Shown here piece after piece: positions 19,501 to 48,766 of a stretch of DNA of 64,000 nt. Where the stretch lies: the NCBI RefSeq assembly GCF_032854445.1, contig NC_088304.1, forward strand, positions 5,890,001 to 5,954,000, in the 5' to 3' direction. The stretch's first letter is position 1. Each line of letters starts with the position of its first letter. Under the pieces are notes generated by a model. That model was not told the origin of the DNA. It saw only the letters and a program-made list of their open reading frames with translations, and did not search any database. The position numbers were made by a program, and so were the translations under genes. Source of the DNA: Liolophura sinensis. Lineage: Eukaryota > Mollusca > Polyplacophora > Chitonida > Chitonidae.

Positions 19501-19524
19501 CTGTGCATAGCCTCTTTCCCTCAA

Positions 19525-21185
19525 ACCATGTCACAACTATCTCTAATCACCCCTTAAACCATGCCACAACTATCTCCAAAAAACCCTCAAGCCATGTCGC
19601 AACTATCTCCAATCACCCCCTAACCATGCCACAACTATCTCCAATCACCCCCTAACCATGCCACAACCACCTCCAATCACCCCTTAAACCATGTCACCCC
19701 CTAACCATGCCACAACCACCTCCAATCACCCCTTAAACCATGTCACAACTATCTCCAAAAAACCCTCAAACCATGCCACAACTATCTCCAAAAAACCCTC
19801 AAGCCATGCCGCAACTATCTCCAATCACCCCCTAACCATGCCACAACTATCTCCAATCACCCCCTACCCATGCCACAACTATCTCCAAACAACCCTCAAC
19901 CATGCCACAACTATCTCCAATCACTCCTTAAACCATGTCACAACTATCTCCAAAAAACCCTCAAACCATGAAACCATGCCACGACTATCTCCAGACAACC
20001 CTCAACCATGCCACAACTATCTCCAGACCCCTTAAACCATGCCATGGCTATCTCCAATCACCCCCCCCCCCCCCCCCAACCATGCCACGACTATGTACAG
20101 ACAACCCTCAACCATACCACAACCATCTCCAAACACCCCTTAAACCATGCCACAACTATCTCCAGACAACCCTCAAACCATGCCACTACTATCTCCAAAC
20201 AACCCTCAAACCATGCCACTACTATCTCCAAACACCCCCCAACCATGCCACAACTATCTCCAAAAACCCTCAAACCATGCCACAACCATCGCTAAACACC
20301 CCTTAAAGTATCCCACAACTGTCTTTAAACACCCCTCAAACCATGCCCCAAAACACCCTTTCAAACTGTGCCACAGCTATCTTCAAACACCCCTCAAACT
20401 GTGCCACAACTATTTTCAAACACCCCTCAAACTGTGCCACAACTATTTTCAAACACCCCTCAAATTGTGCCACAACTATCTTCAAACACCCCTGAAATTA
20501 TGCCACAACTATCTTCAAACACCCTTAAACTTTGAGACAACTATCTTCAAACACCCATCAAACTGCCACAACTGTCTTCAAACACCCCTCAAAGTGTGCC
20601 ACAACTATCTTCAAGCACGCTTAAACTTTGAGATAACTATCTTCAAACACCGATCAGTCTGCTACATTTGTCTTTAAACACCCGTCAAACCATGCCCCAA
20701 ATGTCTGAAAACACCCTTTCAAACTGTGCCACAGCTATCTTCAAACACCCCTCAAACTGTGCCACAACTATTTTCAAACACCCCTCAAATTGTGCCACAA
20801 CTATCTTCAAGCACCCTTAAACTTTGAGACAACTATCTTCAAACACCCATCAAACTGCCACAACTGTCTTCAAACAGCCATCAAACTGTGCCACAACTAT
20901 CTTTAAACTGTACCGCAGTTATCTTCAAACACACCTCAAACCATGCCATAGCTGTCTTGAAACACCCCTGAAAGTGCGCCACAACTGTCTTCAGGCATCC
21001 CTTAAACTGTGCCACTACTACATGTATCTTTAAGCACCCTTAAACCTTGAGACAACTATTTTCAAACACCCATCAAACTGTGCCACAAACTATCTTCAAA
21101 CTGTACTGCAGTTATCTTCAACCACACCTTAAACCATGCCACAACTATTTTCTAGCACCCCTGAACCCGTGCCACATCTGTCTTC
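19525..21185. repeat. Large minisatellite of ~32-33-bp units
   Basis: About fifty diverged copies of a unit like ACCATGCCACAACTATCTCC plus AAACACCCCTCAA. The left half has CCATGCCAC versions and the right half has CTGTGCCAC and TTTGAGAC versions, so the array holds at least two subfamilies. Because most units are 33 bp, all three frames stay open over long stretches (up to about 176 codons), rich in Thr, Ile, His and Pro. No codon bias, start context or splice signals support a gene. Confidence 0.95.
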
Positions 21186-22317
21186 TATGTGCATCATCTC
21201 TTCCAGTCAGATCTGTCCTTATAAATGTGCCCTGTCCAATTCTGTACACAAAGGACAGAGATCTCCTACGTATTACAGCATGCTGTCAAAATTGTGTGGG
21301 GAATATGATGTCTAGACGATCGTGAATTCCAAATTATTTGATAATTATTGTTGATTGATATGCATTTTGTAAATATAATTGTTTTGAGTACTACTGGAAC
21401 TGAAAGTTCAGAATCAAACTTCCTGTAAATATATACGCCAGTGTAACATACAGATGTGCTGGCATTTGGGCAGCTCAGATCAAGAGTTGGATTTTAATGG
21501 TACTTATTTGATGAGTAAACTTGAATTTTCCAGAGGATGTCACATCAGTTGGATGAACGGAAGCATTTGTCAGCTTTCAGTTGAAAACATGTCCTGAAAT
21601 AAAGTGTGAAGTACCTCATTTCTTAAATCTAAATATTTGAAACATAAAATTAAATTTAGCCCTTAGAGAAAACTTGTTGAGAAAGTAAATTCCTCGAAGA
21701 AATTATGGAAGTATAGAAATATAGGAATAGGTATAGGGAATTTACATGCAGTAGAACTTGGCAAAGTTTCATATGACGTAAAACAGGGTCTTTGTATTCA
21801 TTTGTTGTTTTGTTACATACGTAGCATTGTTTTGCATCCATTTACATCAGTGTTTATCGTTTTTGCCTTTCCTAGTCATATGAAACCTCACAGCCCGAAA
21901 CTGGATAGCATTTTTACCAACATAATTAATTATTTCATGGTTTTTGTTAAGCGTTTCTTATCCTGGAGATAGAATTGTATAATCTTATGTGTTCTTGTGT
22001 TGAAGATAGTGAAATGTCAAATGAAGATACTGACATCTGTATTCAGAGTTAATTGTTCTGATGTGTTTTGCCTTTTGTGTTTGTGCTGATTGATAGATGG
22101 ACACACTTGAGGTTTCATGAAGTTAAAAAGCTGTGTCCATTCTTGCATAGATATTATTTTACCATATGTTATGAACAGGGTGAGTGAATATCCCTGAAAC
22201 ATGTTGTGTATTTTGGAAATCGGATATGTTTCTTCATGTAATAAAATCAGACAGGAGACAATGTTACATACAGATGTGGATTTATGGGATGTCTTTTCCT
22301 GTGCTATGGTAACTCAG

Positions 22318-29742: not shown

Positions 29743-29892
29743 AATGATCTAACTACACATACATCTAGCGTGTAGACAACGACAAATAGTAGCTAATAAC
29801 AGCAGGTCTGGCTCCACTATGTGTACATGCATACCATGTATCATGGTATTACATACCAGCTGGGTATGTATTAACATGCACCTACAGTGTTA

Positions 29893-30900
29893 CAAAGGTA
29901 TTACATACCAGCTGGGTATGTATTAACATGCACCTACAGTGTTACAAAGGTATTACATACCAGCTGGGTATGTATTAACATGCACCTACAGTGTTACAAA
30001 GGTATTACATACCAGCTGGGTATGTATTAACATGCACCTACAGTGTTACAAAGGTATTACATACCAGCTGGGATGTATAAACGCCTAGCCTACTGTGGTA
30101 CCCAGGTATTTTGTAACAGCTGGGATGTATAAACGCGTAACCTACTGTGGTACCCAGGTATTTCTTAACAGCTAGGATGTATAAACACGTAGTCTACTGT
30201 GGTACCCATGTATAACATAACAGCTGGGATGTATAAATGCGTAGCCTACTGTGGTACCCAGGTATAACGTAACAGCTGGGATGTATAAACGCCTAGCCTA
30301 CTGTGGTACCAAGGTATAATGTAACAGCTGGGATGTATAAACGCCTAGCCTACTGTGGTACCCAGGTATAACGTAATTGCTGGGATGTATAAATGTGTAG
30401 CCTACTGTGGTACCCAGGTTTAACATAACAGCTGGGATGTATAAACGCGTAGCCTACTGTGGTACCCAGGTATAACGTAACAGCTGGGATGTATAAACGC
30501 GTAGCGTACTGTGGTACCCAGGTATAAGATAACAGCTGGGATGTATAAATGTGTAGCCTACTGTGGTACCCAGGTATAACGTAACAGCTGGGATGTATAA
30601 ACATGTAGCCTACTGTGGTACCGAGGTATAACGTAACAGCTGGGATGTATAAAGGTGTAGCCTACTTTGGTACCCAGGTACAATGTAACAGCAGGGATGT
30701 ATAAACGCGTAGCCTACTTTGGTACCCAGGTACAACGTAACAGCTGGGATGTATAAAGGCGTAGCCTACTGTGGAACCCAGGTATAACGTAACAGCTGGG
30801 ATGTATAAACACATAGTCTACTGTGGTACCCCAGGTATAACGTAACAGCTGGAATGTTTAAACGCGTAGCCTACTGTGGTACCGAGGCATTACGTACCAG
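29893..30900. repeat. 52-bp minisatellite with two subfamilies
   Basis: About 19 tandem copies of a 52-bp unit. The first four or so copies carry CCAGCTGGGTATGTATTAAC and CACCTACAGTGTTACAA; the remainder carry CAGCTGGGATGTATAAACGC and CCTACTGTGGTACCCAGG. Both share the CAGCTGGG core and 52-bp period, so one arose from the other. As 52 is not a multiple of three, any frame rotates between units. Confidence 0.95.
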
Positions 30901-33033
30901 TTGGGAGTATAGGCATGCAGAATCTTAACACAGAGTCAGGTGTGTAGTGTTATAATTCCCAGCACTTAAATGTACATGTAGTCATACAGTGAGAGGTGTA
31001 ACATTTACTTACATGTAAAGTAAACTCACAGATTCAATGTTTAGCAAGAGCCAGCGATTGCAAATAAAAGCAAAAAAATAATGAAAGGTCAAATTCTTCA
31101 GGCTTTGTTTTATTATCTATGATTTTGCATTTCTGGCCCCGCAATCACAAAGCGATCTTAGACTGAAGTCAAAATTGAAATCACTTTAAAATTGTTATTT
31201 CCTACTTAGCGAGGTCAACATATTGCCTGACAACGTAAATTGTGGGTAAGTTATGGGAAATCGAATTTCAGCTATAATAATGGAAAGGAACATACCAAAT
31301 ATAATGACTGAAATTTTGACACTGGGAGTGTAGCCAATCGTACAATGCACTAGATGACCTAAAGATTTGACCACAAAAGAGCAGGTTTGGAGGCAAACAA
31401 ATGTCAAAAGATATTACTTTTGGTGCTCACATTTACATTTTCCCTGTAGGACATCCTCCCACCTTCCAAACACCTCTCAAGGCATCTTTCTAAAATCAAT
31501 TGAACTCCTAGAATCTGGAAAAGTGAGCAACTTAGTCATGGACGACATTTTGTAGGTCGTTTAGGGAAGAATGATCACCATCTAACCTGGAGATGTTATC
31601 GGAAATATGTAAAATAGTTTTTCGCTGATTATCTTAAAAGGGTACACAACAGCACATCAAAGTGTAGCAGTAGTAGAAATCAATGGGGATTTGGGATGGG
31701 TTGGGAACTGTTACTGAGTTCCATCTCTTTTGTCATCAAAGGTAAAAACAGTCCCACTAATGAAAAATGTTAGGCAACCGTCGATATTAATATACCGATC
31801 ATCTCTCACCAGAGGCACAAATAATAACACCTTTTTCACAAATCTTGAACCTCTCAATTCTCTCCATTGTTGGAGTACTCTAAAATACTTCTTGTGAAAC
31901 ACTTTTCAGATGCTCACTTTCAAGCAAATGTGACTGAATATAGTTGCCAAAAATTTCTTACAGGCCACATGATACAATAGCACTTCTGTTACCTTTTTGT
32001 TAACGATAAAAAGAATTCATACTCCGAAGTCCAAACTCCTCTACTGTAGAGAGCTACAAGAATATTGCATAGTTTACAATGTGTGCAGACATATGGTGTA
32101 CTCAGAGCGTGCTAACAGGGAGAAACGTTTAAAAGTGTCAATAGTAACTCAAAAAAACTGACTAACATTTACACATGGTAACGTAACAACCAATAAAGCA
32201 AGGCCTACAGTCAACGCACCATAAAGCTAGGCCAGACCATTTTGTAGTGACTTATGAGAACAAATACCATTGAAACTCCTTAAATGTTACGGATTCAAAA
32301 ATGAGCTGAAAATTGCACGTGCATGCGAACAATGCAACATTTCTCTACACGGGTAAAAATAAACACCGAATTGTGATTATCAAAAACAAGCAGCAGATAA
32401 CAGTTCATAGTGCCCAAGTGACAAGTATCACCGCACCTAAAATATAATCCACAACAACACTGTATTTGGCAAAGCAGATGTAGTCATAACGCATATTGTA
32501 CGCCTGGTTTCTTCTTGTAACTTCACCAACCCAAAAGCATTCCTAATAATTCATATAAATAGATATCTTTGGTGATTAAAACTCAAGGAGACTGATCAAC
32601 TCCAGTATAAAAATATTTTTAAAAATCTTCAGAAGGCTTCACACCTTGAAGTCTTAAAGCAGAGATGTATAACACACACACACACACAGACTGCCCAGAA
32701 AATAACAATACCTCAGTCACGCAGGTAGCCTCAAATTCCAGCCACATCCTGTGGCGTCCCTATCAGCGATATTTTTAAAGGCTTTGTTGTCAAACCTCCA
32801 GCTGCAACAGATGCAGAAGCTTTTCACAGTAGTCCTTTTATCAGCTACTAGAGAAGTTTTCAATAAAATGGCTCTATTTGGGAGTGTTCCCTTCATGTAT
32901 GTATAATTTTTCTTCACTTTTTGCTGAAAGAATATATTCCTTGAGGGTTTGATGTTATTTATCACTGTAAAACACACCTGCTTCTTGTCAGCAATACAGG
33001 GGTGTTTAACGAGAATAAGACAGGTCTAGATGT
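30900..33033. other. Downstream flank of the PKDCC-like gene
   Basis: Includes a family C repeat (31400-31560) and a CA microsatellite near 32678. The part nearest 33034 is presumably 3' UTR of the minus-strand gene. No other coding signal was recognised. Confidence 0.45.
31400..31560 (+). repeat. Dispersed repeat, family C
   Basis: AAAAGATATTACTTTTGGTG, GGACATCCTCCCACCTTCCA, GGCATCTTTCTAAAATCA and GTGAGCAACTTAGTCATGGA follow the family order closely. Confidence 0.7.
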
Positions 33034-36000
33034 CTAATAGAGCACTTCATCCTTGGAGAAGAGCCGGGCGCACTTGTCCATGATGGCCAGAAGACGCGAG
33101 GCAGAATTGTTTATGATGGTTTCCAGTTCCTGTGCCGTCTTGTTCGCAACCTTGGCTTTTACAGAAGACAAGTCACCGGGCCACAAAAGGCCTAATACCT
33201 GAGGATACAGAAAACACTCCTCAGTATCTTATAATGTAAGTAACAGTTTATCATTATTGAGGATTGCACTATCTCGACACAGCACCAATTCTGATAACTG
33301 CTGATAACTGGTTCTCCAACCTCTCAGGATCTGAATCGGTTCTATATACAGAAAGTACCATTACCCAACAATGACAAACCTGTTACTACAAATCCACTTT
33401 CTACATTACATCTACCAACCTGACCTTTAAATTGGTTTCATTATTTTTATATTATTTCTTCACCAGCTTCTAGATGCTTTAAAAGCCATCCTGTACTACT
33501 TTCATTCTATTTGATCATGCTTTCCACAGAGGAAGTCTATGGTCATTTTCAAAGGGTGGAGAAACCGACGTCTAACACCACTGAATCAATGCGGGCCTTC
33601 CATACATTTGATTACTGTTCAATGCAATACTCAAAAATGTTTTATATAAGCAATGATACGCAGTGTATTATGAGTGAAAGAAACCAGAGTGCCATTAGTA
33701 AAGGCAATCAGTACTGTTGGTATTACGTTGTCAAGGTAATTACGTAAACCTAGCAATACGTGTGCTTTGTGAAATGGGGCCATGTCACTTTCATATCACA
33801 CTGGTGGAAGGCAAATGGTTGCCAGCAAACTTTGTGTAACACTACACCAGAGCACCATTTGAAATAATATAGACTTGTATACAACAAGAATATATAAATG
33901 TAATTCTGAACTTCCAAATCTGCTTTCAAGGAATATTTGAATAATATTTTCACGTGGGTTATGCAATGTTTTGTACAAATCTACATAATTTATTTATTTA
34001 TTTGATTGTTCTTGCCAGAATAAATTTTTTTTATTTATTACAATGTCAGTTTTACAAGTGGAGGAAAATGGGGTGCCGAGGGAAACTACTGACCTTTGGC
34101 ACGTTACTTAGGAACCTTCCCACATGTGACATACAGGTATGCTCACCACATTGGTTAGACTGCATAACTGCTTACGGGTCCTGACAAGCTGTTAATGTCA
34201 CAAAGATCACACAAACAGCGTGAGTGCGGGATACAAATTCCCTTTCCAAGGTTAGGTTTGAACCTACATCTCTTAAGCCCTAGCGACTTAAAAGTCAAGC
34301 ACTTTCATGTAAAACAGTACACTATCATCTGACATGTTCTCTAGTTTTAGATTTCCATGATCTGCATGTTGGACAGACGGGATTGTCTCTCACCTCTTGT
34401 CCGAAGGTACAGATGCGGTTGACCTTGCGGGTGCCCTCAACACACCTGAAGCATCCTAGGAGTTGAGCGACAGAGCGTGGGAATTGACAGTTGTAAAAGT
34501 AGTTGAGGATCCAGCTCATGGATAGGTTTAGGAAACCCTGGCTGGTCTCAAAGTGAACCAGGTGACCTGCGAGACAAACACAAACAGGGAAACACTTTAT
34601 ACGTAGACTGATTAATTGGCTGACTGTTCAGCTCTGAGACAGGATCAGGAAACTCTGGCTGGTCTTAAAGTGAACCAGGTGACCTGAGGGGCAAACACAC
34701 ACAGGTAAACACTTTATATGTAGACTGATTAACTGGATGACAGTTCAGCTCTGAGACAGGATCAGGAAACCCTGGCTGGTCTTAAAGTGAACCAGGTGAC
34801 CTGAGGGGCAAACACACACAGGTAAACACCTTATACGTAGACTGATAAATCTGCTGACTGTTCAGCTCTGAGACAGGATCAGGAAACCATGGCTGGTCTC
34901 AAAGTGAACCAGGTGACCTGCGAGACAAACACACACAGGTAAACACTGTATATGTAGACTGATTAATTGGATGACTGTTCAGCTCTGAGACAGGATCAGG
35001 AAACACCGGCTGGTCTTAAAGTGAACCAGGTGACCTGTGAGTCAAACACACACAGGTAAACACCTTATAAGTAGACTGATTAATTGGCTGACTGTTCAGC
35101 CCTGAGACAGGATCAGGAAACCCTGGCTGGTCTCAAAGTGAACCAGGTGACCTGAGGGGCAAACACACACAGGTAAACACTTTATATGTAGACTGATTAA
35201 CTGGATGACTGTTCAGCTCTGAGACAGGATCAGGAAATCCTGGCTGGTCTCAAAGTGAACCAGGTGACCTGAGGGGCAAACACACACAGGTAAACACCTT
35301 ATACCTAGACTGATTAATTGGCTGACTGTTCAGCCCTGAGACAGGATCAGGAAACCCTGGCTGGTCTCAAAATGAACCAGGTGACCTGAGGGGCAAACAC
35401 ACACAGGTAAACACTTTATATGTAGACTGATTAACTGGATGACTGTTCAGCTCTGAGACAGGATCAGGAAACCCTGGCTGGTCTCAAAATGAACCAGGTG
35501 ACCTGAGGGGCAAACACACACAGGTAAACACTTTATATGTAGACTGATTAACTGGATGACAGTTCAGCTCTGAGACAGGATCAGGAAATCCTGGCTGGTC
35601 TCAAAGTGAACCAGGTGACCTGAGGGGCAAACACACACAGGTAAACACCTTATACGTAGACTGATTAATTGGCTGACTGTTCAGCCCTGAGACAGGATCA
35701 AGAAACCCTGGCTGGTCTCAAAATGAACCAGGTGACCTGAGGGACAAACAGATAAACGCAGATTGATTGACTGTCCAGTTCATGGACAGTTTCGCAGTAA
35801 ACCAAGTTACCTGGGCACAAAAATGTAAATTTTATTCAGTTATTTAAACAAATTTAATCATTGTTTAATGCCATACTAAAGAATTTTCCGCTTAAATGAT
35901 GGCTGTCAGTTTTCAGACAATTTGGGACAGATTTCTGCTGTACATGGGGAATTTACTGACCAGTGTGATAATCAAGTCTGGCCAGGATGCCTGTGTTAAA

Positions 36001-39000
36001 CAGAAACAGCCTGGTAAATAGTGGATAATATTTACTTTAAATTATTACAGTGTATTACAATCATCTTTCTTGCATAACAAACAACTGCTCTGTCATTAGT
36101 CTTTAGAGTGGAATAATCCAAACTATCAGTTAATGACTCATAGAGGTACTCATAAGGATTGAATACTTGGGGTTGAATGTCATACTTATCAATTTTCACT
36201 CAACCGACAATGAGGAGTCACTGGATGTGTGTACAGACACTGTGTCTCCTGGTGGCAGGGCGAGTCCATGCCGCCAAAATTTTGCAGCCACTGAAGTATT
36301 GCGCCAAAGACACCAGACATGACACCCCACCCAGTCACATTATACTTACCCCAGGCCGACCAATCCTGTTTCCTTGCTCTAACCTCTAAGCGCTGTATGA
36401 ACATACAGAAGTCACACAGTAATTACACCAGGAGTGTTATTGCATGTTTTGAGTCCTACAGCTGAAAGATTCACACAGTGGGTAACACCGGGTTTGAACT
36501 CAGATTTCCACATCCAAAGTCAGGCGTTCCACAAAGTTAACAGGGAGTTAACAGGGAAATTCCCCTTTAGATACTGCTAGTATAAGTGTTGTATTGTGAA
36601 TGTTAGCAGGCCTTACACATAATCTGTTTTAATCTGGTCTTGCAGTGGAACTGTAGGCTTGGTGACCACCTACTGTTTAATCCACCGCAACGCTGCATAT
36701 CAGGACCAGTCATGTACGTTATTGTTAGAATTATATGTCTGTAAACCTTGTTAAAACTTATTTGTTACTATGCTGTATGTTTTTGTATAAAAATGTACTG
36801 TCACTTGTCAAGTGTACCCAGAGCCCCGGAACCACCGACTCTGCGATACAATTGTGCCATAGCTGAAGTTACACCAGCTAGTGTGAATCTGTCTAATTTA
36901 TATGTGCATGTTTTCCTATCGTTCATGAAGTGTTCAGTAGATAAGTAAATCCTGCCTTGAGTGTTCCTGATTACAAATTGTGACCGGCATCACAATATTG
37001 GGACTATAGACCTGCTGTTGTTGTACATGTGTAACAGCGGATGATACATCGTTGTTCACTACTTACCCTTATAACCGACATGCCCTAGCTTAGGGTGGGG
37101 CATGCGTGTGAGCCACATCACTATGAAGTACTCTAGCTGTATACGCTGTTTCTTGCTGAGAGAGGTGATTTGTCGCACGTAGCTCTCGGGGCGAGGCAGA
37201 ATGACCTCCTGTGGGGTGATGGTCTTTGGCTTGGGGACAGTCATTAGAGCTGTGGAGAGAAAGTTTGCTGTCAGATAACACCAATTTATGGGTACAGGTA
37301 CCTGTTCAGCAGTAAACTAGAAGATTTGTACATATGTATGTATGCCTGGGGTTTTACATTGTACTAAGCAAATTTTCAGTCATATGACAACGAGGAGTCA
37401 TCTGGTGTGGGTACATATACTTTGTCTTCCTGTGGACAGGCGAGTCCACGTGCCACCACTGCACCACTGAAGACACCAGACATGACACACTACCCAGTCA
37501 CACTATACTGACACCTGGCCGAGCAGTCCTATTTCCTTGCTCTAACCTCTCAGTGCTGAGCACAAAATGAGGCAGCAACATGAACCATTTTTAAAGTCTT
37601 CGGTATGACCCACCCAGGTTTGGTCCCAGGTCTCCTTTCTTTGAGGTGGGTGCTCTCAACTGTTAGACTTTAAGAAGATTTGTAAGGTGTCCTGACCAAA
37701 CAATGGTGACCTATGTCTATATAGACATTACAGCAGCACAGGACATTCATAGCTTACAACTTAGAGCTCAACATAAAAGATGCTCATTGTGGAGGTCAAT
37801 CTTAATTGACAGCCACCTTTTTCTGATGTATCTGTTATCAGGTGCACACATACACATTCTTGAATCAATGAATCAATTGAGGTGAATCAATTCTTTGAGC
37901 CGACAATAATATATTACCACTCAAGGATGTCTCTCTTATGAAAGAGAGGCCTACTTCATGGATGTAGGGTGGCGTCCAGAGTAAATCAACACTTCCTGAC
38001 ATCCATTACTGAGGTGAATTTCACATTTATGCAGTACTGAGGTGAATTTTACTGTCAGCCATTACTGTGGTAAATTTTACAGTTATCCATTACCGAGGTG
38101 AATTTTACAGCTATCCATTACTGAGATGAAATTTTCACTTATCCATTACTGAGGTGTATTTTACAGTTATCCATTACTGATGTGAACTCACCTGACAGAT
38201 ATCCATTACTGAGGTGAATCTTACCTGACAGGTATCCATTACTGAGGTGAATCTTACCTGACAGATATCCATTACTGAGGTAAATCTTACCTGACAGATA
38301 TCCATTACTGAGGTGAATCTTACCTGACAGATATCCATTACTAATGTGTGCCTTGTATGGTTTGAACCAGGGTTCTACCCAGGCTGTGGTCAGAGACCTT
38401 GTGGGAAGCTGAACCAGGGTGGTGGGAGGTACGTGGTAAAGCTACAACATCACCACAGCAACATGTATAAGTTACTCTGCCAGTAAACATGACATATTTC
38501 ATTTGATGGATTAGTGTTCAGTACAGAACACAAGAACACACTTTACTATACTGTAGCTTCATAGGATGTCTAAACCCACCAGCCTTCTGGCAAGTAACTG
38601 ACAAACTTAACTACATAACAGGCACAAGTTTTCACCTACCGAACAAGACCACTGCCATATTGTTAAGTTTGTTCCTCACTCAATGTTCCTTCACAATGTC
38701 CAAGTTTAAGAGTAGACATACATAAACTGCTCCATAAACTCCCACTAATGACTTTCTCTTCACTTTTTTTTTGTGTATTCAAGAACACAGTATTCAAGAA
38801 GTACATGTAACATACAGAACATATGTCATTAAAAACTAGTTCAAAAAAATATGTTCATTCAGACCAGAGTTCAGAGTTCAAATTCAAGGTCGTACCAAAG
38901 ACCAACAAGAGTTAACACAACCATGCCACAACAAATGCATTTGTTTGAAATGTATGAAAGAATACCAGCAGCATTGTGGTGAGAACAACCCCTGAGGGGA

Positions 39001-42000
39001 ATCTTCATGGGTGTTGATGATAGGTATGTGGTTACCATGACAACCGTGCAAGTGGACAAATGTGTCCACCACAAATGAAAAATAAGGCGGAACATAGTTG
39101 GAGTTGTAGCCCGGACACGAAATCACTTCTATTTATGTAGTGTATATAAGGAAAACAGCTACCCGGTTACCATGATAACTGCAAAAATGAACAAATGTAA
39201 GTCGTGACACATCATCCTTCGTGTATCTTTGTATCCACCATAAATTAACACTCTATGTGGAAAACTGTTGGAGTTATAGCCCAGACATGAAATCATATCT
39301 ATTTATATACTGTGAAGTATTTAATTTTTGTGTGGAACTAATTTTCGTGGATTTCGCAGTCAATAATTTACCGCAAAAAAATAATTCCAGCAAAATATCT
39401 TGGAAGATTTTAAGATTTGTTTTTCAGTATTCTCTTAAAAAAATTAATTCCTGCGAACATATTTTTGGAGAAAATCCGCGAAAATAAATTCCAGTGAATA
39501 ATAAGTACTTTACAGTAGTATACATGGGGAAAATGGGAATCTGGTAACAATGACAACCGCGTAAATGGACAAATGTCAGTCGCGACACATCCTCATCTGT
39601 TCATGCATGCATCCACCAAAAATGAAAACTCTACGGGAAAAACAGTTGGACCCTGAGCCTGGACAAGAAATTATATCTATAGATAGATATAGTATATACA
39701 AGGAAACTGGCGATCTGGTAACCATGACAACCGTGGAAATGAACACATGTGAGTCGCAATACATCATCATCTGTGTATGTATATATCCACGGAAATGAAA
39801 ACTCTACACAGAAAACAGTTGGAGTTATAGCCCGAACAGGAAATCACATCTATTTATATAGTAAATATAAGGAATATGGCTATCTGGTTACCACGACAAC
39901 CGTGAAAATGGACAAATTTGAGACACAGCATCATCTGTTTATGTATGTAACCACCAAAAACGAGTTATAGCCCGGACACAAAATCATAAATATCTTCATA
40001 GTATATATAGGGAAACTGGTGATCTGGTAACCATGACAACCGTGAAAAATGGACAAATGTGAGTGAAGACATAAAGTCATCTGTGTATCCATGAATCCAA
40101 CAAAAATTAAAACTCTATGTTGAAAACTGTTGGAGTTACAGCCCGGACACGAATATGGACAGACGGACAAAATCACTATAACATAAAACACTCAACCTAT
40201 TGGTGGGATGTATAAAAATGGTTGTTGCCTCGCTTGGTGCTAAGCACTGAGAGGTTAGAACAAGGAAATAGGATTGGTTGGCCCGATGTTAGTATAATGT
40301 GACTGGGTGGGGTATCGTATCTGGTGTCTTTGGCATGACGTGCCTCTTCATCGTCAAATCACTGAAAAACTGTTAAGTGCGATGTTGAGCCCAAGCCTTC
40401 ATTCATTCATTCAAATGGCCAAAATGAGCAGATCTGCAGAAGTCTTTCTCATGCAGCAATTTCCGGCAGAGTTTCTGTACACCAAGCCCAAACTTCAATC
40501 TAAGTTGGCCACTACATGAGAATGGTCTCCAGGCTGAATTAGACAGAAAGTGAGGCTCGGTATACAAATTCACTTCATGCGATTGCTCCTTGAAAAAGGC
40601 CTAAGGGGTGTACAAAAAACATTTAGATAACAAGTTGTTTTATTTCAAACAACCTGGCCAACGTTCTTCTCACCCCTAGAAGTCTGTCAATGTAGAAAGC
40701 GAGGGCCTGAGCAAGATAGTGCTGGTCGGGTCCAGTCTGTGTCATGACCATGGCACTGTCCACTCCGTCCACCCGGTCAGTGTCAAAGGTCACCATGAAC
40801 TGACTGTCCGTATCCAGTAGTGGGTAGGAGCCAGATATCTCACTACCTTTCACCTCGCTCAGCCAGGTCTTCTCATCCACACCTGCGGCACAATTCACAT
40901 CAAATATGCACGTGTAATAAAGAGTACTCAACAATATTACAAAACATTCCATAGGCAGTATACTGTCAGTTCTTTGCTCACGTCCAACAGAGACTGTGTT
41001 TCTTAGCAAAACTTGAATCAAGCGCTGAAATTAAATTTTGTTTGCTTAAACAATACATGAAATGTTTAGTTCTTATTCCCAGTACTGAGGACATGATATG
41101 ATCTAACATATAAAACTACAAATCAGCTTCTCAGCTTACTTCTGGGATTATTAGAGGACTCTACAGTTTTCAAAACAACTTTGTTTGAGCAAGAGCCCGA
41201 ATTGGAGATGCTTAGCTGTTCATGCATTTCCATTATGTTCATCAATGGTGTTATCTTCCGAACTCTGATGCAAAACATACATAAAATATAGGGGTTATTA
41301 AGAAACTAAAAATATGTCTTAAAACCCAAATTTTATATTCTTAATTCTTATTTCTTCATTTTCTTAAAACCACACTCTTAGTTTTATAGCACCTTTTCAT
41401 GTATTCTTTAAACAAAAACAAAAAAAATCATTTAGTTTGGTCCAGAGCGCTCAGTGCAAGACACCAGGCTTTGGCAAGTAACTGAGAAAACAGTCCCACA
41501 CATTTTCACATGTGTTTCATACTAGTGGAAGGTAAGTGATCTCCAACTAGCGTCATGTAAGAATACCTGAACACTTATGCTTTACTGCAACTGAGAAATG
41601 TTGGTACCGGTAGTTTACAAGAAGCAAGTCTTAGTCAGACTGAAGACTTTCGCCTGAATATGCCGACTACTTTGAATGACAGGCTCTTTAGGAATGTAGG
41701 CTACGTTAATGTGAAGAATTGATTTGTTCCAAAACACAAGGTCATGAAGGTGACCATGAAATACCACAAACAAAGGTTACCAATCCTTAAATCTTGTAAC
41801 AGAAAAATTTGAGTTTGCATAGTAATACATCTCGTATGATTTTCCTTCCTCCCAAGATCTTACCTTTCATTCCCAAATGAGTCATCAGTCGTTTCTCAGC
41901 TGACCGCCGTGACTTTTTCTGCTCTCTGAACAATGCCTGGCTACACTGTTTGTGCTCCGCCTGCATCTGTTCTTTCACCGCCACCTCCTCCTCCTCCACA

Positions 42001-42160
42001 ACATCCTCTGGAATAGGCCCCTTCCTTATGTGCATTATGTCATTTTCACTGAGCTTCTGTCCATCACCTGGCGATGAGGTCTCTTTGATGAACAGTGTCA
42101 CACCATCCTGAACCACTGGTTCTGAATGCACGCCACTCTTGAGCACAATTGTAAACAGCC
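33034..42160 (-). CDS. C-terminal part: possible FAM20/GASK-like degenerate kinase fold
   Basis: After the end of PKDCC homology the exon at 41864-42160 continues into a Glu/Lys-rich, probably coiled segment (EEEEVAVKEQMQAEHKQ, REQKKSRRSAEKR) and five further exons. ALAFYIDRLLG resembles the 'AFHLDRVLG' helix of FAM20, FJX1 and GASK proteins. EYFIVMWLTRM followed by HLVHFETSQGF resembles their FLIGNMDRH and DNGRGFG motifs but lacks both Asp residues (Thr761 and Glu781). Later Cys residues and the C-terminal helix (ELETIINNSASRLLAIMDK) also recall FAM20. The similarity is read by eye and weak. An unrelated lineage-specific domain is the alternative. Confidence 0.45.
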
Positions 42161-45100
42161 CTGGATGTGAACGGAAAAACAGACAAAGCTTTACTACATA
42201 GAGGATATACAATGAGTGATCCATTATATTAAATTTATTAAACAAGTGGTGTAATTTTCATTTGTATACAAATGAACTAGATCTACATGTAAAAGACAAC
42301 TTCTTGCTGCTCTACAAAGTTGTAAGGTAAGTTTGTAGGTGTTTAATTTCATGAAAATCTGATACTGAGGCATGCTGCTGCCGTTGACGACTGAACTTAT
42401 GTTTGTGAGTAACTTGTTTTAGGTGTACTGGTACAGCATCAAGCGCTTCTTTTCCTTTTGCCAACCTTTGCTATTTTCACATTTCAAGAAGATAAATTTT
42501 AGGCCTATCCAGCATCCCAAAAACTTAACCATTTGGTTCTAAGAAAGTGCTGTCGCGTTGTAGTAAGTGATGACTGGCTGGCTTTGTTTTTTCTTAATGG
42601 CAACAAAGAACAGAAGTAGTCTCGCGGACAATTGTACTTTCATTGGATAAGCTTGGTGAGTTCAGGTTCAGGTGACCAATCAAAGTTTGGGGTTATTTAT
42701 ATACTGTTATGTGAACAACTGCCGTCAGCTTCTAAATTTAGCTTGCCACTGTTTACATATGCTGAGCTCAGGGCCTGCTGTCTGCCTCTGCCTTAGAATG
42801 TTCCATAATACGCTCAGTTCGGGGCCTGTTTGTTTACAACAAGTCTTCAGTAATTTTCTTATTCTAGAAAACTCCACCAGTCTATATAAGATGTATGAAA
42901 GCAGGTCAAAGAAGGAGAACGGAGAATTATTGAGAGTTTTGGATGCTTTCACTGTGTGTTACTTTAGTAGGCCTTTTGTGCTGAATTTTGGTGTCTTTAT
43001 AGCCTCTGGCTTTGTTATATTTTCACCGAGCACTTGTTCAGTCTGAACTTGTATATTTAATTTGTGTTCTTGTGTACACAGTGCTTATTAGTACACGGAC
43101 CCTGTCTGTGGAATTTTGTGTATATTTCATCATACACTCAGTTATACTGTGGATTTTCCCTCTTATTTGCGCATTTATGCCTGTATTGTTTTCAGCATTG
43201 TGGAATATATGCGTCCGTTTGGACTTGACACCGTTGTACATGTAAGTACTTTAGTATTTGTATAGATACTGCTATCCTTTCTTGTTAAACTTAAGTACTT
43301 TAGTATTTGTAAAAGTTTTGTTATCTGTTCTTGTTAAACCTAATAAACTGTTGTAAAATAAAATCTGCTGGTTTTGGTTACTTTTTTGTGCGGCTAAACT
43401 GTCATGTATTTCGAACAAGCCATCTCTTTATAATGCAGACAGTTTGGGTCGCAACAATATCAAGCAGAATATTGAAAATTATGGGGTAATACATGTATAT
43501 AGTAGATGAAGTGAACAGAACACTATAGATGTTCTAGATGTTCACAAGGCATCACAATCAGGACACAATGCTCAAACAGAGTGGTGTCAAAAACTTGAAA
43601 AACTGTTTGACGGCATGAGTGAGTCTGTCAACATAATTCTTCACATAGAATAATTACAGCCTGAGCGATTCTGACTCAATGAGGAGACAAACTGCACAAC
43701 AAACGAGCAAGGTTTCTGGAAGCATGCGAATATCAACGTTGTCCCAGTAGTAATCTTATAAGACAAAGCCACCTGACTGGCTGATTATTGATATTAAACT
43801 AAACATGCCCTTGTTTTTCATGAAATTTTCATTCCTGTCATGGTTTGAGTGAAAAACATGTATAGTTTATACTTGACCTATTCATGTTATGGGCCATAGG
43901 TTGAAGCAACACGATGATCCTCAGGCTAGTTGTACATGGCTTACATGTACCCTATACACTGTTCACTCTTTTACATAAGATCTTTTACAATGAAATCCGG
44001 CTAACCACTCCTTCCTTTTTTCCATACAGATAACATGGGAACACCTGGCTAAGGACCGAGTCCTGAAAACGTACCAATAAGCTGGTCACTTTTAATGAGA
44101 CCACTCTAAATGTGCTCTCAAGTGACAATCTAAGCGACCGAGTGGGTGGTTTTTATGATAGAAATGAGCAAAAAAAAAAAGAAAATTCAACTTACTGTTG
44201 ACTTCTGGGAACTTTGAGAAGGCAACAAAGGACTTGCACTGAGGTAAAGCATCACACTTTCTCTTAGCATCATCCAGCCCCACAGCATCATAGACACACC
44301 CCCAGGTGACACGAGACTTCGTACACAGGAAGTCAAACATGTTCGGGAAGTTTGACATGTCCACACGTCTGTAACGCGGTCTCGCATGCATCTCACCTTC
44401 GTCTCCCTCCTGATAAAAGTGCAATAATAACACATATATTGGAAAAGATAATAACAAGACTATGTAATAATGCAATATTCAAGGATCCATCAGTTATACA
44501 CAAAAATTAAAGGATACATGGCTTTATTTCGTGACACAGAGCATATGATGTGGCCTAACGTGAAGAAAGTGTAAAATTTCTTCTTGGCAGTGCACAATGT
44601 GTAAAATGCACATATCAAATCTATCAACTAAGTCATCTGTTAAATGTCATTAAACCTGTAACGGAAAGATACCTAGGAATTATCTCAGCAAGACAACAAT
44701 TAACAAGGAAGAGCCCACGAACTTTGAGAAAGCTGGAAAAAGACTGTTTGCTACCTGCATTGGGTGGTGGCCAGGTCGCTCCCCTTGTTCATCTCTTCTG
44801 TTCTCATTGTTTCCATCTCCGACATCCAAATATTCTACATTTTTAACTGTAAACAACAAAATACAAATGATCATTATACAAATTTACAAAGGCCCAGCCA
44901 TGGCCGAATAGGTCAATGAGTAGAATCCAACTGTCAGTGATTTTGCTGTGGCTTTCATTCAGGAAACTTCTCAGACAATAGTTAACATGTGATGGGTTTC
45001 AACCAGTACCCCAAATTACTGCATGTAGCAGTTACTTTTGAGCTCCACACTTCAAAGTCTGCACTTCAATTTGTATCTATTCTCTAGCACTGACTACCGG

Positions 45101-48100
45101 TGAAGTTTATTTATTCATGACAATGCTATAAATACTCTTCTGCAGGGGTTAAAATTATGGGAGGTCGGGTGAGAACGAATGATCACGGCTTAATGCCATT
45201 AAGTAGCTTCAAACTAGCTCTTAAAATGATGTGTGGGTAAGTGGCCTAATCTCTCACCCCTGATGTTGGCCATTCGCTTGACGGTGGTGAGTAATCCCTC
45301 AGGTGTCACTCTCACGGCTTTACAATCCTGTATCAGCTTGGACACATCCTTCGACAACTCTCGGGGAAGGCTCCGTAACAGTGGTCCTATGATCACATCA
45401 TAGATCTTCTTCACGTTGGATCTAGCGTTGAATCCTGTACACTGTCCAGATCCGCAAGGAATACCTGCAACGAAAGTCATCAGTGAAAATACAGTGTCTC
45501 AAGCAAAACAGTGATGTTTTTATTAAAAGATAAAGGAAACAAATAAAATAACTTCAGGAGTTCTTAAGGAAGAGGGGTGGACCTATATACATAAAACCAT
45601 TTTTTCTGAGGTACTTAGTAACTCAAATATATCAAGTTTTAATCCAGAATTCCGATGAGGCCATGGAATGTGCCATGTTACGGCAGCCAGAAACACCATG
45701 TCACTCCACCTACCCCATGCACATATGGTTACAAGGAAAACCACAGTTTGGCTGCCATCAGCTGAAACATCTGCGTTCTCAGATTATGCAGAAAACAGAT
45801 TAATCTCTGATTAATCAAAATTGATAAAGTGGTGCATTAGATTTTTTCAATTTTTGTGTGGTTTTGCTGTGATGTTGCATAGCCAAAATATCACAGTTCA
45901 AAATGGGTTAAGCTTTGTAAACTAATTCATGTTGGATAACTTATGTGCCTTTAGTCAGGTGTTGTTTTTTCTTTTAATATATTTCTGTGATAACACTGTG
46001 AGTACATGTATTTTGGCCAACACCAAATTTAAAAATATATTCCGACAAAGCTCTCAATATAAATAATAAATAGAATTTAAATTTTCTTCCACCTATGGGA
46101 AAAATTATTCTAAATATTTTCAGAGCATATTTTGCTTTGCTTTGAATATTTTCCATTTTCTTAACATTTAGAATTTGGGACATTTCATATCAATGCATTC
46201 TTACTTTATTTACTAGGGGCAAATGATACTTACAACGAGTTTATCATAACTAACATAATAAGGAAATACTGAAATTACCATCAGTCCAGCACGGTTTATT
46301 GAAGTAAAAGATACATTTGAACACACATTACCAATATCAAAACCAGCATAGAAACAATCTTTCTTGTCAGAACACTTCAATTCCCCCAGTCTAAGCTCAT
46401 CCAGGTCAACCAGCTTAACAGTGTCCTTCACACAGACAAAGTCCTTGGAGGTCACCTTAGTCAATCTCAAGTTTCCTAAGGGGGATGACTCTAGGTAGAT
46501 GAGGAGGTTAGCGAGTGACTGAATAATCTAAAAAAAAAAAATAAAGCAACACATTTATTAAAAACTAATGCAACTGATAATGAACACAAAAGATAACCAC
46601 AGCTTGTGCATAGCAGCATGTATATCTGTAAGGAAAAAGTAATTGGTTTCACAAGTCTTTGAATTTTTCCAGAGGTAGTTATGGAGGCTATACTGAAGAC
46701 ATGGAGTAAAAATTCCACACTAGCTAATGAAATCAAATTTTCTTTGCTTGCAAAGAATATGTCAAATTATTGCCATTCAGAATATATGGTAGCATCATAG
46801 GTTTTTCATTCTTTAGACATGGCTGATATTTTGTGAAAGGTAATTATATGGGCTATTCTAACATAGTAGCAAAAATCCATTGGATTTGCTGTTCTGAATT
46901 TTTTCCAAAAATCTCCAATATAGTCTCTTTAACATGTTAGAACTTTAGTGGCATCTGTATCATGATGCAAAATTGATTGACGTTTAATACTGTACTCTGG
47001 AATATTTCACTCATTGCATAGGCAGCTTTACCCTACTCCCTAGAAGGCGCCTCCGTGCTCTAGTGATTAGCCTACTAGAACAGCTCAATGACCCACCAGC
47101 TTCTAGCCAATGCAGTTGCAGTGAGTTCAAGTCCAGCTGGATGCTGAAATCTGCTCCGGTGATACCAGCAACCTGCGGCTGGTTGTGGGTTTCCTCTGGA
47201 GTCTACTAGGTTTCCTCCCACCATAATGCTGGCGACTGTCATGTAAATGAAATATTCTTCAAGAGTATGGAATAAAACACCAATCAAATAAATAAATCGT
47301 ATAACTAGTCATTTTCATTTAATTTGAAATGCCTGAAGTAACCCTCCAGCCTTTGGCCAAGTAACAACTTTCCTGCATATGACAGACAGTGATCAAAATA
47401 TACTGGTCCTACTGAAACTCTAGAGTTTTTCCTACATCCACTATTGCTGTCATTAACCAATGGTTTGTCTTTTTCTCATAACCCAATGTTAATTATCAGG
47501 TGTTCTGATTCTTTCCACACTTTCCAGTTTCACCCTACACTTTCCAGTTTCACCCTACACTTTCCAGTTTCACCCACACTTCCCAGTTTCACCTCACACT
47601 TTCCCCACACGGAAGAGTGGGGATGAATAGACATTACTACCTTTATTGTTTTCTGGCCAATATCAACATTTCACCCTGAATTATTTCAACCACCCTTAAA
47701 AAATTCTTCATCTAGTGTAAACCCAATCCAGTGAGAAAAAACAGGGTCAGCGGGTTGAAAATAATTTTTTTTATTTTATTTTGCTTAATAAATAACATAT
47801 GAATTTTAAAGAAATAATTTTTTTCTATCAGAATTCCGATAAAAAAACTTAGACTAAAGCCTTTTGTGCACTGTTGGTCAGATTACACCCAACTACCTTA
47901 AAAAGTTAATGCTGGCCTTACTGTACCTGTAATTTTTGCTTGACCTTCATTCTGGAGAGGAACTCCGCATGACAGGGCATTCCCATTTCTGTGACCATAA
48001 TAACACCGTTACCACCGATGTAATTCATCACTGCGTCTCCACGGATACAGTATCCTAGCAACTTCGCGATGTTCGCGTGGTGCAATACACTGTGCAGGAG

Positions 48101-48766
48101 TATTTCCCGCACCACCTGGAAGTTCATCTCCGCGGTGCACCGATCAAAATTATTGTGGAACTCCTGCAGGCAGCGGGCTTTTGTTGTGAGGTCTCGCCAT
48201 GGCACCTTCATAGCGACTTCTACCTCGTGATGCAGTCCTTTGTAAACAAGCTTCTTACTGGATGTATCTATCTCTTGATCTACCTGTATGCTATCTATGT
48301 CTCTACAAGAAAGTGGACTTTTCACATCCAAGCCATGCAGCATTTCGGATGTGTCAACAATAAAATCCTCAATGTCCGGAATCAGTGATGACATATGCGG
48401 AGACATCTTAAGCAAAGTGCTTTTGATTTGAACTAGGGCAGATTCAGACAGTAAGGAGTGGCCGATGTGATGTCTTTTCTGGTTGAACATATTATTTCCT
48501 GCCTCCTGTTCGCTCATGTCTTCGTTCAGGTATGGGTCCAGAAGACCGATTTCCCGATCCAGCATGTTAGCTTGCCGGTCAGGATAATGTGGAAATGTGT
48601 CTGACATATCGTCTTCTTGCATAGCTAACTTAGTCTTGCTCTTATCCTCTTTCTGAGAAATGCTGAACAACACATACACAACAAACACGAACACAGTGCC
48701 AATGAGTATCAAGCGCTGTTTGATGCTTAACTTTATACATCTTCTTCTGAATGCCATCGTGTTCAT
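33034..48766 (-). CDS. PKDCC/VLK-like extracellular kinase-fold protein with extra C-terminal domain
   Basis: Eleven exons join in one frame: 47927-48766, 46332-46527, 45258-45464, 44755-44846, 44196-44409, 41864-42160, 40674-40882, 38324-38408, 37067-37249, 34394-34566, 33034-33198; predicted 886 aa. A type II signal anchor spans residues 19-36, so the rest should face the secretory lumen or outside. Residues ~150-542 follow PKDCC (VLK), the secreted tyrosine kinase: Lys in VAMK (187), alphaC Glu (221), SLANLLIYLESSPLGN, DLDE in place of DFG (321), then the C-terminal Cys-rich part (TWGCVYDAV, CDALPQCKSFVAF) ending LFIK where PKDCC itself ends. Residues 543-886 are additional. The catalytic-loop Asp is replaced by Lys304. 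The start could also be Met4. Confidence 0.8.
33986..34130 (-). mobile_element. SINE family A, degenerate
   Basis: TTTATTTATTTATTTGATTG followed by scrambled body text and CACGTTACTTAGGAACCTTC, in the last intron of the PKDCC-like gene. Confidence 0.45.
34567..35815. repeat. 117-bp minisatellite made from an exon's 3' splice site
   Basis: About ten copies of a ~117-bp unit directly upstream (in transcription) of exon 34394-34566. Read on the minus strand, each unit has a pyrimidine-rich tract, CCCCTCAG (or CTCGCAG) and then GTCACCTGGTTCACTTTGAG, identical or nearly so to the first bases of the true exon, plus ACCAGCCAGGGTTTCCT. In every copy the reading frame of the exon meets TGA within about 60 bases, so use of a copy as an exon would truncate the protein. 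A further decayed copy ends near 35815. Confidence 0.9.
36178..36400 (-). mobile_element. SINE family B, partial
   Basis: Reverse complement of the family B body: CGACAATGAGGAGTCACTGG, AGACACCAGACATGACAC, CACCCAGTCACATTATA, CTCTAACCTCTAAGCGCTG. Confidence 0.7.
37337..37672 (-). mobile_element. SINE family B, full length
   Basis: Read on the minus strand it starts with a tRNA-like head (GAGAGCACCCACCTCAAAG, CTGGGACCAAACCTGGG). It runs through GTGCTCAGCACTGAGAGG and GTCATATGACTGAAAAT to CATACATACAT. It inserted next to exon 37067-37249 of the PKDCC-like gene. Confidence 0.75.
37990..38342. repeat. 33-bp minisatellite made from an exon's 5' splice site
   Basis: Begins inside exon 38324-38408 and runs into its intron. 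Minus-strand unit: AGTAATGGATATCTGTCAG plus GTAAGATTCACCTC, 33 bp. Five consecutive units keep a perfect donor, with GT at 38323, 38290, 38257, 38224 and 38191 (first base, minus strand); the fifth reads GTGAG. Further copies to the left have lost the donor (CTGTAAAAT) and vary in length. See findings for the coding consequence. Confidence 0.92.
39020..40150. repeat. Diverged tandem repeat (~140-185 bp) with X-box-like palindromes
   Basis: Six units, each with GGTTACCATGACAACCGTG-like text, then AAATGGACAAATGTGAGTCG, an ATCATCTGTGTATGTATCCA part, AAAACTGTTGGAGTTATAGC and CGGACACGAAATCA. Units two and three are separated by a MITE (39308-39517). The array lies in an intron of the PKDCC-like gene. 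Confidence 0.8.
39308..39517. mobile_element. MITE of ~210 bp with ~50-bp inverted ends
   Basis: Left end TACTGTGAAGTATTTAATTT; right end inverted TACTGTAAAGTACTTATTAT. Further in, GGAACTAATTTTCGTGGATTT pairs with GGAATTTATTTTCGCGGATTT. There is no coding capacity. The target duplication may be TA but flanks are ambiguous. Confidence 0.75.
40205..40415 (+). mobile_element. SINE family B, 5'-truncated
   Basis: TTGCCTCGCTTGGTGCTAAG, GAGGTTAGAACAAGGAAATAG, GTGACTGGGTGGGGTATC and TTAAGTGCGATGTTGAGCCC, ending in CATTCATTCATTC. Confidence 0.75.
41864..48766 (-). CDS. N-terminal part: PKDCC-like kinase domain and Cys-rich tail
   Basis: Six exons. Exon one (280 codons) holds the anchor, a variable acidic stem and the kinase N-lobe; exons two and three hold the C-lobe. 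Exon four is a short polar linker (GDGNNENRRDEQGERPG) and exon five is the Cys-rich module. In human PKDCC the matching strings are SLGRLLHHLAHSPLGS, VTDLDD and CESHAQCRAFVV. The glycine-rich loop is not recognisable: the stretch before VYKG reads EIDTSSKKL. With the Lys at the catalytic-Asp position, this suggests a pseudokinase that may still bind nucleotide. Confidence 0.75.
42549..43403 (+). mobile_element. Possible solo LTR
   Basis: An 850-bp block with a TATA-like TTATTTATATAC near 42692, an AATAAA signal near 43341 followed by a T/G-rich stretch, and an open frame unlike the neighbouring protein genes. It contains an internal direct repeat of about 50 bp (43243-43340, TACTTTAGTATTTGTA). 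Clear TG...CA ends with target duplications could not be shown. It lies in an intron of the PKDCC-like gene. Confidence 0.25.
47044..47297 (+). mobile_element. SINE family A, full length
   Basis: Head GGCGCCTCCGTGCTCTAGTG, B box GAGTTCAAGTCCAGCTGG, body CCATAATGCTGGCGACTGTC and tail CACCAATCAAATAAATAAAT, in intron 1 of the PKDCC-like gene. Confidence 0.8.
47516..47608. repeat. 20-bp tandem repeat
   Basis: About four copies of ACTTTCCAGTTTCACCCTAC, the last ones diverged, in intron 1 of the PKDCC-like gene. Confidence 0.85.

Follow-up and report, generated by a model that had tools for sequence, protein, structure and literature searches.

On the minus strand of the window (the whole 64,000-nucleotide stretch of Liolophura sinensis DNA analysed here), a single gene is tentatively read as encoding a type II secretory-pathway pseudokinase of the PKDCC/FAM69 type, approximately 845–886 amino acids long, in which the kinase-like domain is followed by a Cys-rich tail, a charged linker, and a C-terminal domain. 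This best explanation, held with some reserve, gives the protein a role as a regulator or scaffold. The sequence itself shows that the first domain matches a kinase domain, that its catalytic aspartate is lost, and that a single exon continues past the PKDCC-like end as far as a strong donor, where the codon signal stops.

Gene structure and the continuation of exon 6

Ten of the eleven exons were placed. They open with an ATG and close with a stop codon, and the internal borders carry AG/GT. Splice scores throughout come from a generic matrix, not one trained on this genome.

Exon 1, 47927..48766, minus strand: start codon (ATG), N-terminal segment resembling a signal anchor, RRRCIKLSIKQR + LILIGTVFVFVVYVLFSI (by eye), stalk, and kinase N-lobe with the VAMK lysine
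Exon 2, 46332..46527, minus strand: start of the C-lobe; catalytic loop LTKVTSKDF; DFG equivalent DLD
Exon 3, 45258..45464, minus strand: C-lobe (PCGSGQCTGFNARSN)
Exon 4, 44755..44846, minus strand: charged linker, which the C6 relative (see below) does not have
Exon 5, 44196..44409, minus strand: Cys-rich tail module, also present in the C6 relative (21 identities over 71 aligned residues)
Exon 6, 41864..42160, minus strand: PKDCC-like end (LFIK), followed by a 73-codon linker, charged and probably coiled, and by a strong donor, AAG|GTAAGA
Exon 7, 40674..40882, minus strand: start of the C-terminal domain, with a helix-C-like motif (AFYIDRLLG) at its end; strong codon signal, weak acceptor
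Candidate exon 8 (85 nt), 38324..38408, minus strand: good donor, codon signal absent; unsupported
Exon 9, 37067..37249, minus strand: 5′ border uncertain (acceptor 37316, 37301, 37249, or 37208)
Exon 10, 34394..34566, minus strand: HLVHFETSQGF..., weakly matching the FAM20/Four-jointed/FAM198 profile in its DFG-region columns
Exon 11, 33034..33198, minus strand: stop codon, preceded by a C-terminal helix that is a weak anchor on the profile; codon signal strong
Tandem array (117 bp × 10.4), 34530..35750, minus strand: upstream of exon 10

The tandem array holds ten additional copies of the exon 10 acceptor together with 17 full codons and an in-frame stop.

Exon phases agree at all junctions except that between exons 7 and 9, which needs an extra exon or a different acceptor, and the codon signal of exons 9 and 10 is weak. 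A preliminary description had proposed an eleven-exon, phase-matched GT-AG frame of 886 amino acids; ten of those exons stand, but the phases of exons 7 and 9 disagree as placed, and the full model is unsupported because exon 8 is unverified. The 886 residues are recovered (887 letters including the stop) if the missing exon is 38408–38324, an identification made in this analysis and absent from the earlier exon list. A search of the intron gave 212 stop-free, frame-compatible AG..GT candidates of 25–400 nt, this segment being one of four with 85 nt. It is single copy by genome search; its donor (7.2) was the top score among all sites tried, and its acceptor (1.2) just exceeds the 90th percentile for background AGs. 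Against it, the segment and a 33-bp minisatellite overlap at the latter's edge, and the codon score does not rise above background, 49.5% of 400 stop-free intron windows scoring as high. Other candidates among the 212 were rescored and rejected: the best ranked were short or inside the minisatellite, and none appeared kinase-like by eye.

Exon 8 is in any case dispensable, since alternative exon 9 acceptors at 37316, 37301, and 37208 keep the frame intact without it, yielding 880, 875, and 844 amino acids, respectively. None of the three is clearly correct; the 37301 extension is non-coding by codon score, and the acceptors at 37316 and 37208 are weak (−2.0 and −1.1). Read-through of exon 7 past its donor was considered since AFYIDRLLGVRRTL shares 9 of 14 residues with a FAM198 segment (z 4.85; 0 of 300 shuffles). 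It was discounted: V-R-R/S is what the donor GTGAGAAG encodes in any case, and no well-placed acceptor was found to fit the later donor.

Exon 6 runs 73 codons beyond the normal PKDCC-like end to its strong donor (7.0). This tail scores 0.24 per codon, above all 400 background windows (of up to 30 codons), and reading past the donor gives −0.41 per codon; the signal resumes in exon 7 at 0.31 per codon, again above all 400 background windows. Since the codon signal reaches this strong donor and is absent past it, exon 6 probably splices onward, and exon 7 would be the exon that it joins. The earlier claim that the same exon continues past the PKDCC end towards more coding exons is thus upheld.

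It is unlikely that two adjacent genes are present instead, namely a PKDCC-like gene with its own longer tail and a separate downstream gene starting at or upstream of exon 7. Such an arrangement would account for the exon 7 acceptor, which at 0.6 is the weakest of the exons with settled borders (against a 90th percentile of 1.1 for 173 background AGs), and for an open frame upstream of exon 7 with a signal-peptide-like start, MECFVILLSTLYYTCIFDVNCAA, a start passing the hydrophobicity threshold in just 74 of 5000 simulated introns. However, the stretch just upstream of exon 7 is non-coding in composition (−0.39 per codon, with 90.7% of 400 background windows as high or higher), and a comparable chance start precedes the internal exon 6, so that two of the gene's nine acceptors pass, those of exons 6 and 7. 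At the observed hydrophobicity, moreover, 1.2–2.4% of combinations of AG site and frame in the window have such starts. As a gene start the candidate proved uninformative on testing, given the chance starts elsewhere and the non-coding composition. Exon 7 is also in phase with exon 6, itself probably spliced onward.

A PKDCC-type first domain with an altered catalytic loop

Residues 220–395, in the N-terminal part, match the FAM69/PKDCC-type kinase domain (PF12260) with an E value of 2.8e-11 and 43.8 bits against a cut-off of 25.2, which bears out the family originally proposed. In tblastn comparisons with nine loci of the same genome, a relative on C12 (L001) matched at E 1e-20 and one on C6 (L002) at E 2e-5; two FAM69/DIA1-like loci (L008 and L009) gave no match up to E 10. 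The protein therefore appears nearer to the PKDCC-like than to the FAM69/DIA1-like loci of this genome, the PKDCC label of the C12 and C6 relatives being itself presumptive. This comparison used same-genome loci alone, with no named or vertebrate PKDCC sequence in it, and left out a third PF12260 locus (C12:4992139). The N-terminal anchor is hydrophobic by eye; a secretory location is predicted, probably with type II membrane topology.

The C6 relative, a gene model built in this analysis from DNA alone, ends with LFVSEE in the exon homologous to exon 6, and the same phase-1 intron precedes that exon. Its termination at the equivalent point agrees with the earlier placing of the end of PKDCC homology at LFIK. 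Nothing convincing was found downstream of the C12 relative for its tail (L010), and C6 is therefore the sole in-genome relative displaying the normal end; a further locus downstream of C6 (L011) added nothing.

Two marks were used for the PKDCC branch: an end shortly after the Cys-rich module and an aspartate in the catalytic loop. The C6 relative stops at LFVSEE, whereas the window protein continues. In the catalytic loop, the window protein has lysine in place of aspartate (LTKVTSKDF), and the C12 and C6 relatives keep the aspartate (MNDFRRQQF and VPDFKEPHF, respectively). The ATP-binding lysine, the helix-C glutamate, and the DFG aspartate are all retained. The first domain is predicted to be a pseudokinase, and the label of 'secretory kinase' given to it previously is unsupported because lysine replaces the catalytic aspartate. 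POMK, formerly regarded as an inactive kinase, is reported to phosphorylate a mannose (PMC5865150), and the three retained residues would suit a first domain that similarly remains active with an unusual catalytic residue. With the catalytic base changed from aspartate to lysine, and aspartate present in both in-genome relatives, such activity is, however, very improbable.

The C-terminal domain

The C-terminal domain comprises approximately 230–270 amino acids. For this part Pfam gave no match at E ≤ 5 (most of those above 0.1 being removed by filters) and PDB gave none at E ≤ 10, and a 243-aa construct run against Pfam reported neither PF06702 nor PF15051. No further genome copy was present among the matches listed, the best outside the locus having an E value of 0.096 and containing stops, and a PF15051 profile search of the genome, run without a positive control, gave no match. 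With hhalign (single sequence versus a five-paralog profile) the probability was 0.6%, and the score was exceeded by at least 10 of 100 shuffles.

On a profile of FAM20, Four-jointed, and FAM198, tested with the 875-aa model, the domain has three weak collinear anchors (helix C, the DFG region, and the last helix). Their total of 0.9 bits was reached by 30 of 1000 shuffles and, in a second test, by 76 of 3000 and 39 of 3000. The combination of at least 0.9 bits with at least three collinear anchors spanning at least 200 columns, a criterion picked after the anchors had been seen, arose in none of 3000 global and none of 3000 local shuffles. When the FAM198 row of the profile is removed, two anchors are left (0.4 bits) and that of the DFG region is lost. 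A FAM20-only profile gives −0.6 bits for the domain, yet recognises both Four-jointed-like proteins.

At helix C, exon 7 gave a FAM198 Pfam match (E 0.26, below the cut-off), which adds little because it uses bases past the donor and arose in one of the three constructs containing that stretch. Other matches of sub-constructs below the Pfam cut-offs were rejected as chance: NGF (E 0.0044), AEP-TOTE (0.14), and NXPE4_C (0.072). Pairwise scores were mixed over 30 comparisons (five constructs by six proteins): the whole domain gave z 3.88 against L003, 1.92 against FAM198, and −0.96 against L004, exon 11 gave 4.03 against L005, and exons 9–11 gave −0.03 against FAM198.

A degenerate kinase fold of the Four-jointed/FAM20/FAM198 type is accordingly a lead, not proof. 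The second folded domain proposed at the outset is plausible. What fold it would have is unproven, and neither Pfam nor PDB gave a family above the cut-off. Those null searches, together with the lack of a second genome copy among the matches listed, the non-significant hhalign result, and a profile score of just 0.9 bits, would also fit a single fused gene whose C-terminal part is not kinase-like, its fold being new or restricted to the lineage, or the tail being disordered in part. Against this stand the three collinear anchors and, with little weight, the FAM198 match at exon 7, and we regard it as rather unlikely. Also doubtful is the fullest form of the kinase-like reading—a tandem secretory pseudokinase joining two distinct families of secretory kinases in one chain, a dead PKDCC-type and a dead Four-jointed/FAM20/FAM198-type domain, and regulating extracellular phosphorylation.

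Proposed role and comparison with known systems

Under the single-gene reading, the first domain would retain nucleotide binding (Lys, Glu, and DFG Asp being kept) and transfer phosphate inefficiently. The tethered second domain may be a degenerate Four-jointed/FAM20/FAM198-like kinase fold, possibly dead, and both together would serve an active secretory kinase of the Golgi lumen, either as its scaffold or as an allosteric partner, a role modelled on FAM20A acting on FAM20C. The protein is a candidate regulator rather than an enzyme because the catalytic residue is apparently lost and the second domain is maybe a remnant of another kinase. Secretory kinases and their pseudokinase partners are, as far as is known, distinct proteins. 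In the portions of the secretory-kinase and pseudokinase literature covered, no dead PKDCC-type kinase fused to a second domain was found, which does not prove its absence. If true, such a natural fusion would hint at which partners work together and offer a ready-made system for testing allosteric control in the Golgi lumen.

PKDCC (VLK, SgK493), of the RESK/FAM69-DIA1-PKDCC family, resembles the window protein in its N-terminal membrane anchor (by eye), PF12260 kinase domain, and Cys-rich C-terminal module with a short final strand, with intron positions common to the C6 relative. The window protein differs in its lysine for the catalytic aspartate, its extra charged exon 4, and the 73-codon linker and further domain beyond the point at which the C6 relative ends. 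DIPK2B (CXorf36, DIA1R) is a probable pseudokinase of the same wider family, reported to lack the active-site aspartate; it belongs, however, to the DIA1 branch, and the portion of its description consulted mentions no extra C-terminal domain (PMC3696010). FAM20A, described as a secretory pseudokinase and separate partner of FAM20C (PMC5865150), is the template for an allosteric role, but it has the FAM20 fold, to which the relation proposed for the window C-terminal domain is weak, and has lost another active-site residue. With the Four-jointed family (FAM198/GASK1, Four-jointed, and FAM20), the window domain aligns weakly and in order at AFYIDRLLG, which resembles helix C, at HLVHFETSQGF, and at its C-terminal helix; the similarity is not significant by Pfam, PDB, or hhalign. 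Although non-secretory and of other families, JAK and the plant tandem kinases carry kinase-like domains in a single chain, one of them dead.

The PKDCC-type domain and its predicted loss of catalysis

The first domain of the window protein matches the FAM69/PKDCC-type kinase domain PF12260 at residues 220–395 of its 615-aa part (E 2.8e-11; score 43.8 against a cut-off of 25.2 bits). Comparison of this domain with nine fetched loci by tblastn identified two relatives, designated C12 (E 1e-20) and C6 (E 2e-5); the two loci that match PF12260 most strongly were not relatives in this search. Over aligned columns, the window protein is identical to the C6 relative at 125/459 positions and to the C12 relative at 94/381. 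The C6 relative, 505 aa as assembled here (our own gene model, built from DNA), also matches PF12260 (E 1.4e-6) and, as a 438-aa construct, a POMK structure (E 6.8e-4). It has a Cys-rich tail module in common with the window protein. Both genes have a phase 0 intron before exon 2 and a phase 1 intron as the last one ahead of the final PKDCC-like exon; the intron before exon 3 falls at the same residue, with its phase off by one. The comparison was with in-genome loci, and we therefore infer the PKDCC label of the first domain.

The roles of the ATP lysine, helix-C glutamate, DFG aspartate, and catalytic aspartate belong to general kinase biology. A three-way alignment of the window protein with both relatives indicates that the first three are kept (VAMK, VVREI, and DLD, respectively), with the catalytic aspartate of the relatives (MNDF, VPDF) replaced by lysine in the window protein (LTKV). 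The label "secretory kinase" used in the preliminary description is not supported at this residue, and the first domain is predicted to be a pseudokinase with impaired catalysis. Divergent catalytic motifs (GNQDEKHVY, HIDHGLG) occur in the FAM20-like locus L004 (C5:18757000-18766900), possibly another pseudokinase.

Gene model, continuation past exon 6, and minisatellites

The genome searched comprises 609 Mb in 632 contigs, with the window at 5890001-5954000 of contig C10. Ten exons were placed on the minus strand from 48766 to 33034, all with AG/GT internal borders. Of the eleven exons, matching phases, and 886 aa described earlier, the borders of these ten and, with one further exon added, the length were reproducible; phases agree at every junction but exon 7–exon 9, where an exon 9 start at 37249 requires one more exon. 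An 85-nt exon at 38408-38324, which the description did not name, restores 886 aa; it is one among 212 frame-compatible candidates, four of which are 85 nt. Scored with a generic matrix of our own, it has a good donor (7.2, higher than any other scored) and a fair acceptor (1.2), but its codons score no better than background. Exon 9 begun at 37316, 37301, or 37208 stays in frame without exon 8, giving 880, 875, or 844 aa. The acceptor at 37301 outscores that at 37249 (3.0 versus 0.9), and the codons it adds score non-coding (95% of 400 background windows equal or exceed them). The 85-nt exon and the alternative acceptors are all candidates for this junction.

The claim that exon 6 runs on past the PKDCC-like end held up. 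The C6 relative ends in ...RLFVSEE, within the exon homologous to exon 6, whereas the window protein reads ...TLFIK and continues for 73 further codons. For the codon scores, long frames from L001, L006, and L007 (the C12 relative and two Four-jointed-like loci) served as the training set, and 400 intron windows free of stops, each 30 codons long, as background. The 73-codon tail scores 0.24 per codon, above 400/400 of these windows, and read-through past the exon 6 donor falls to -0.41; that donor (AAG|GTAAGA, 7.0) is the strongest among the ten placed exons. The C6 stop, the tail's coding score, and this strong donor all support the extension. Exons 7 (0.31) and 11 (0.24) likewise exceed every background window; exons 9 and 10 are weak, the EVIL... 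part of the former being reached by 10% of windows and the latter by 23%. Against the extension, the exon 7 acceptor is poor (0.6), and the frame upstream of exon 7 opens with a hydrophobic MECF... stretch, a kind of start that only 74/5000 simulated introns yielded. But the stretch scores non-coding, and such starts also occur, at the observed hydrophobicity, at 1.2–2.4% of AG sites × frames in the window; one precedes exon 6 as well, making two of the gene's nine acceptors.

Repeats and an open frame in the window and two FAM20-like loci
34530-35750, minus strand: tandem array, 117 bp × 10.4, repeating the exon 10 acceptor and first codons
L005 4612-5481: minisatellite, 68 bp × 12.8, repeating an apparent exon end (LLLLDNAK) with GGTAACC
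L004 4788-5531: minisatellite, 39 bp × 19.1, unit holding GAAGGTAAGA
Window 2514-3476, 19518-21187, 29845-30911, 38001-38342: further long minisatellites
Window 3935-5188, minus strand: Ser/Pro-rich open frame of 417 aa (no Pfam match at E<=0.01)

CAG|GTCACC is retained in all ten extra copies of the 117-bp array, as are 17 complete open codons and an in-frame stop; splicing to any of them would cut the protein short, which makes every copy a potential decoy acceptor. One 117-bp unit gave 11 genome matches among those listed, all inside the array. A donor-like site lies inside the minisatellite unit of both L005 and L004; no minisatellite of that kind was found in L003, also FAM20-like.

The C-terminal domain

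No match to the C-terminal domain, encoded from exon 7 onward, came up in Pfam at E<=5 or in the PDB at E<=10, and the genome search returned no second copy, a missing match there being no proof of absence. Sub-constructs produced Pfam matches, all below cut-off: NXPE4_C (E 0.072), FAM198 (E 0.26), NGF (E 0.0044), and AEP-TOTE (E 0.14). The FAM198 match spans the helix-C motif but was set aside because it uses bases beyond the donor, appears in one of three constructs containing that exon 7 and past-donor stretch, and the GTGAGAAG donor alone encodes V-R-R/S.

A profile of eight sequences combined five FAM20/Four-jointed-like proteins of the same genome, two FAM20 chains from the PDB, and one FAM198 segment, which Pfam confirms at E 1.2e-119. 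"Four-jointed-like" is our own label for L006 and L007; L006 scores 26.6 bits against PF06702, just below the cut-off of 26.8, and its match to FAM198 likewise falls below that family's own cut-off. On this profile the domain (875-aa model) totals 0.9 bits, with three weak anchors in the correct order, namely AFYIDRLLG at helix C, HLVHFETSQGF at the DFG region (with Glu in place of Asp), and the C-terminal helix. That total was reached by 30/1000 shuffles and, in a second test, by 76/3000 global and 39/3000 local; together with three collinear anchors spread across at least 200 columns—a criterion chosen post hoc—it was reached by 0/3000 in either mode. With the FAM198 row removed, two anchors and 0.4 bits are left. 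The score is -0.6 bits on a profile built from FAM20 sequences only, which nevertheless recovers the two Four-jointed-like proteins at 26.7 and 26.5 bits and the FAM198 segment at 8.1 bits. With hhalign there was no significance, at least 10 of 100 shuffles outscoring the real sequence. A kinase-like fold is given an even chance at best, or marginally less.

Proposed role and known secretory kinases

Most likely, the N-terminal hydrophobic segment would anchor the protein and its two domains would lie in the lumen of the Golgi, nucleotide would be bound without efficient phosphotransfer, and the protein would regulate or scaffold active secretory kinases. Sequence matches place FAM20-like and Four-jointed-like proteins in the same genome, and these could be its partners.

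A literature search on a PKDCC-type fusion found none among the matches listed, and the portions of PMC7948968, PMC3696010, PMC5896498, and PMC9941534 consulted, which describe VLK/FAM69/DIA1 and Four-jointed/FAM20/FAM198 as secretory kinase groups, do not mention one. CXorf36, a family member lacking the active-site aspartate, is called a probable pseudokinase (PMC3696010), and FAM20C is activated by the pseudokinase FAM20A (PMC5865150). Set beside these groups, the window protein is probably a dead member of the PKDCC branch that carries an extra C-terminal domain of putative fold.
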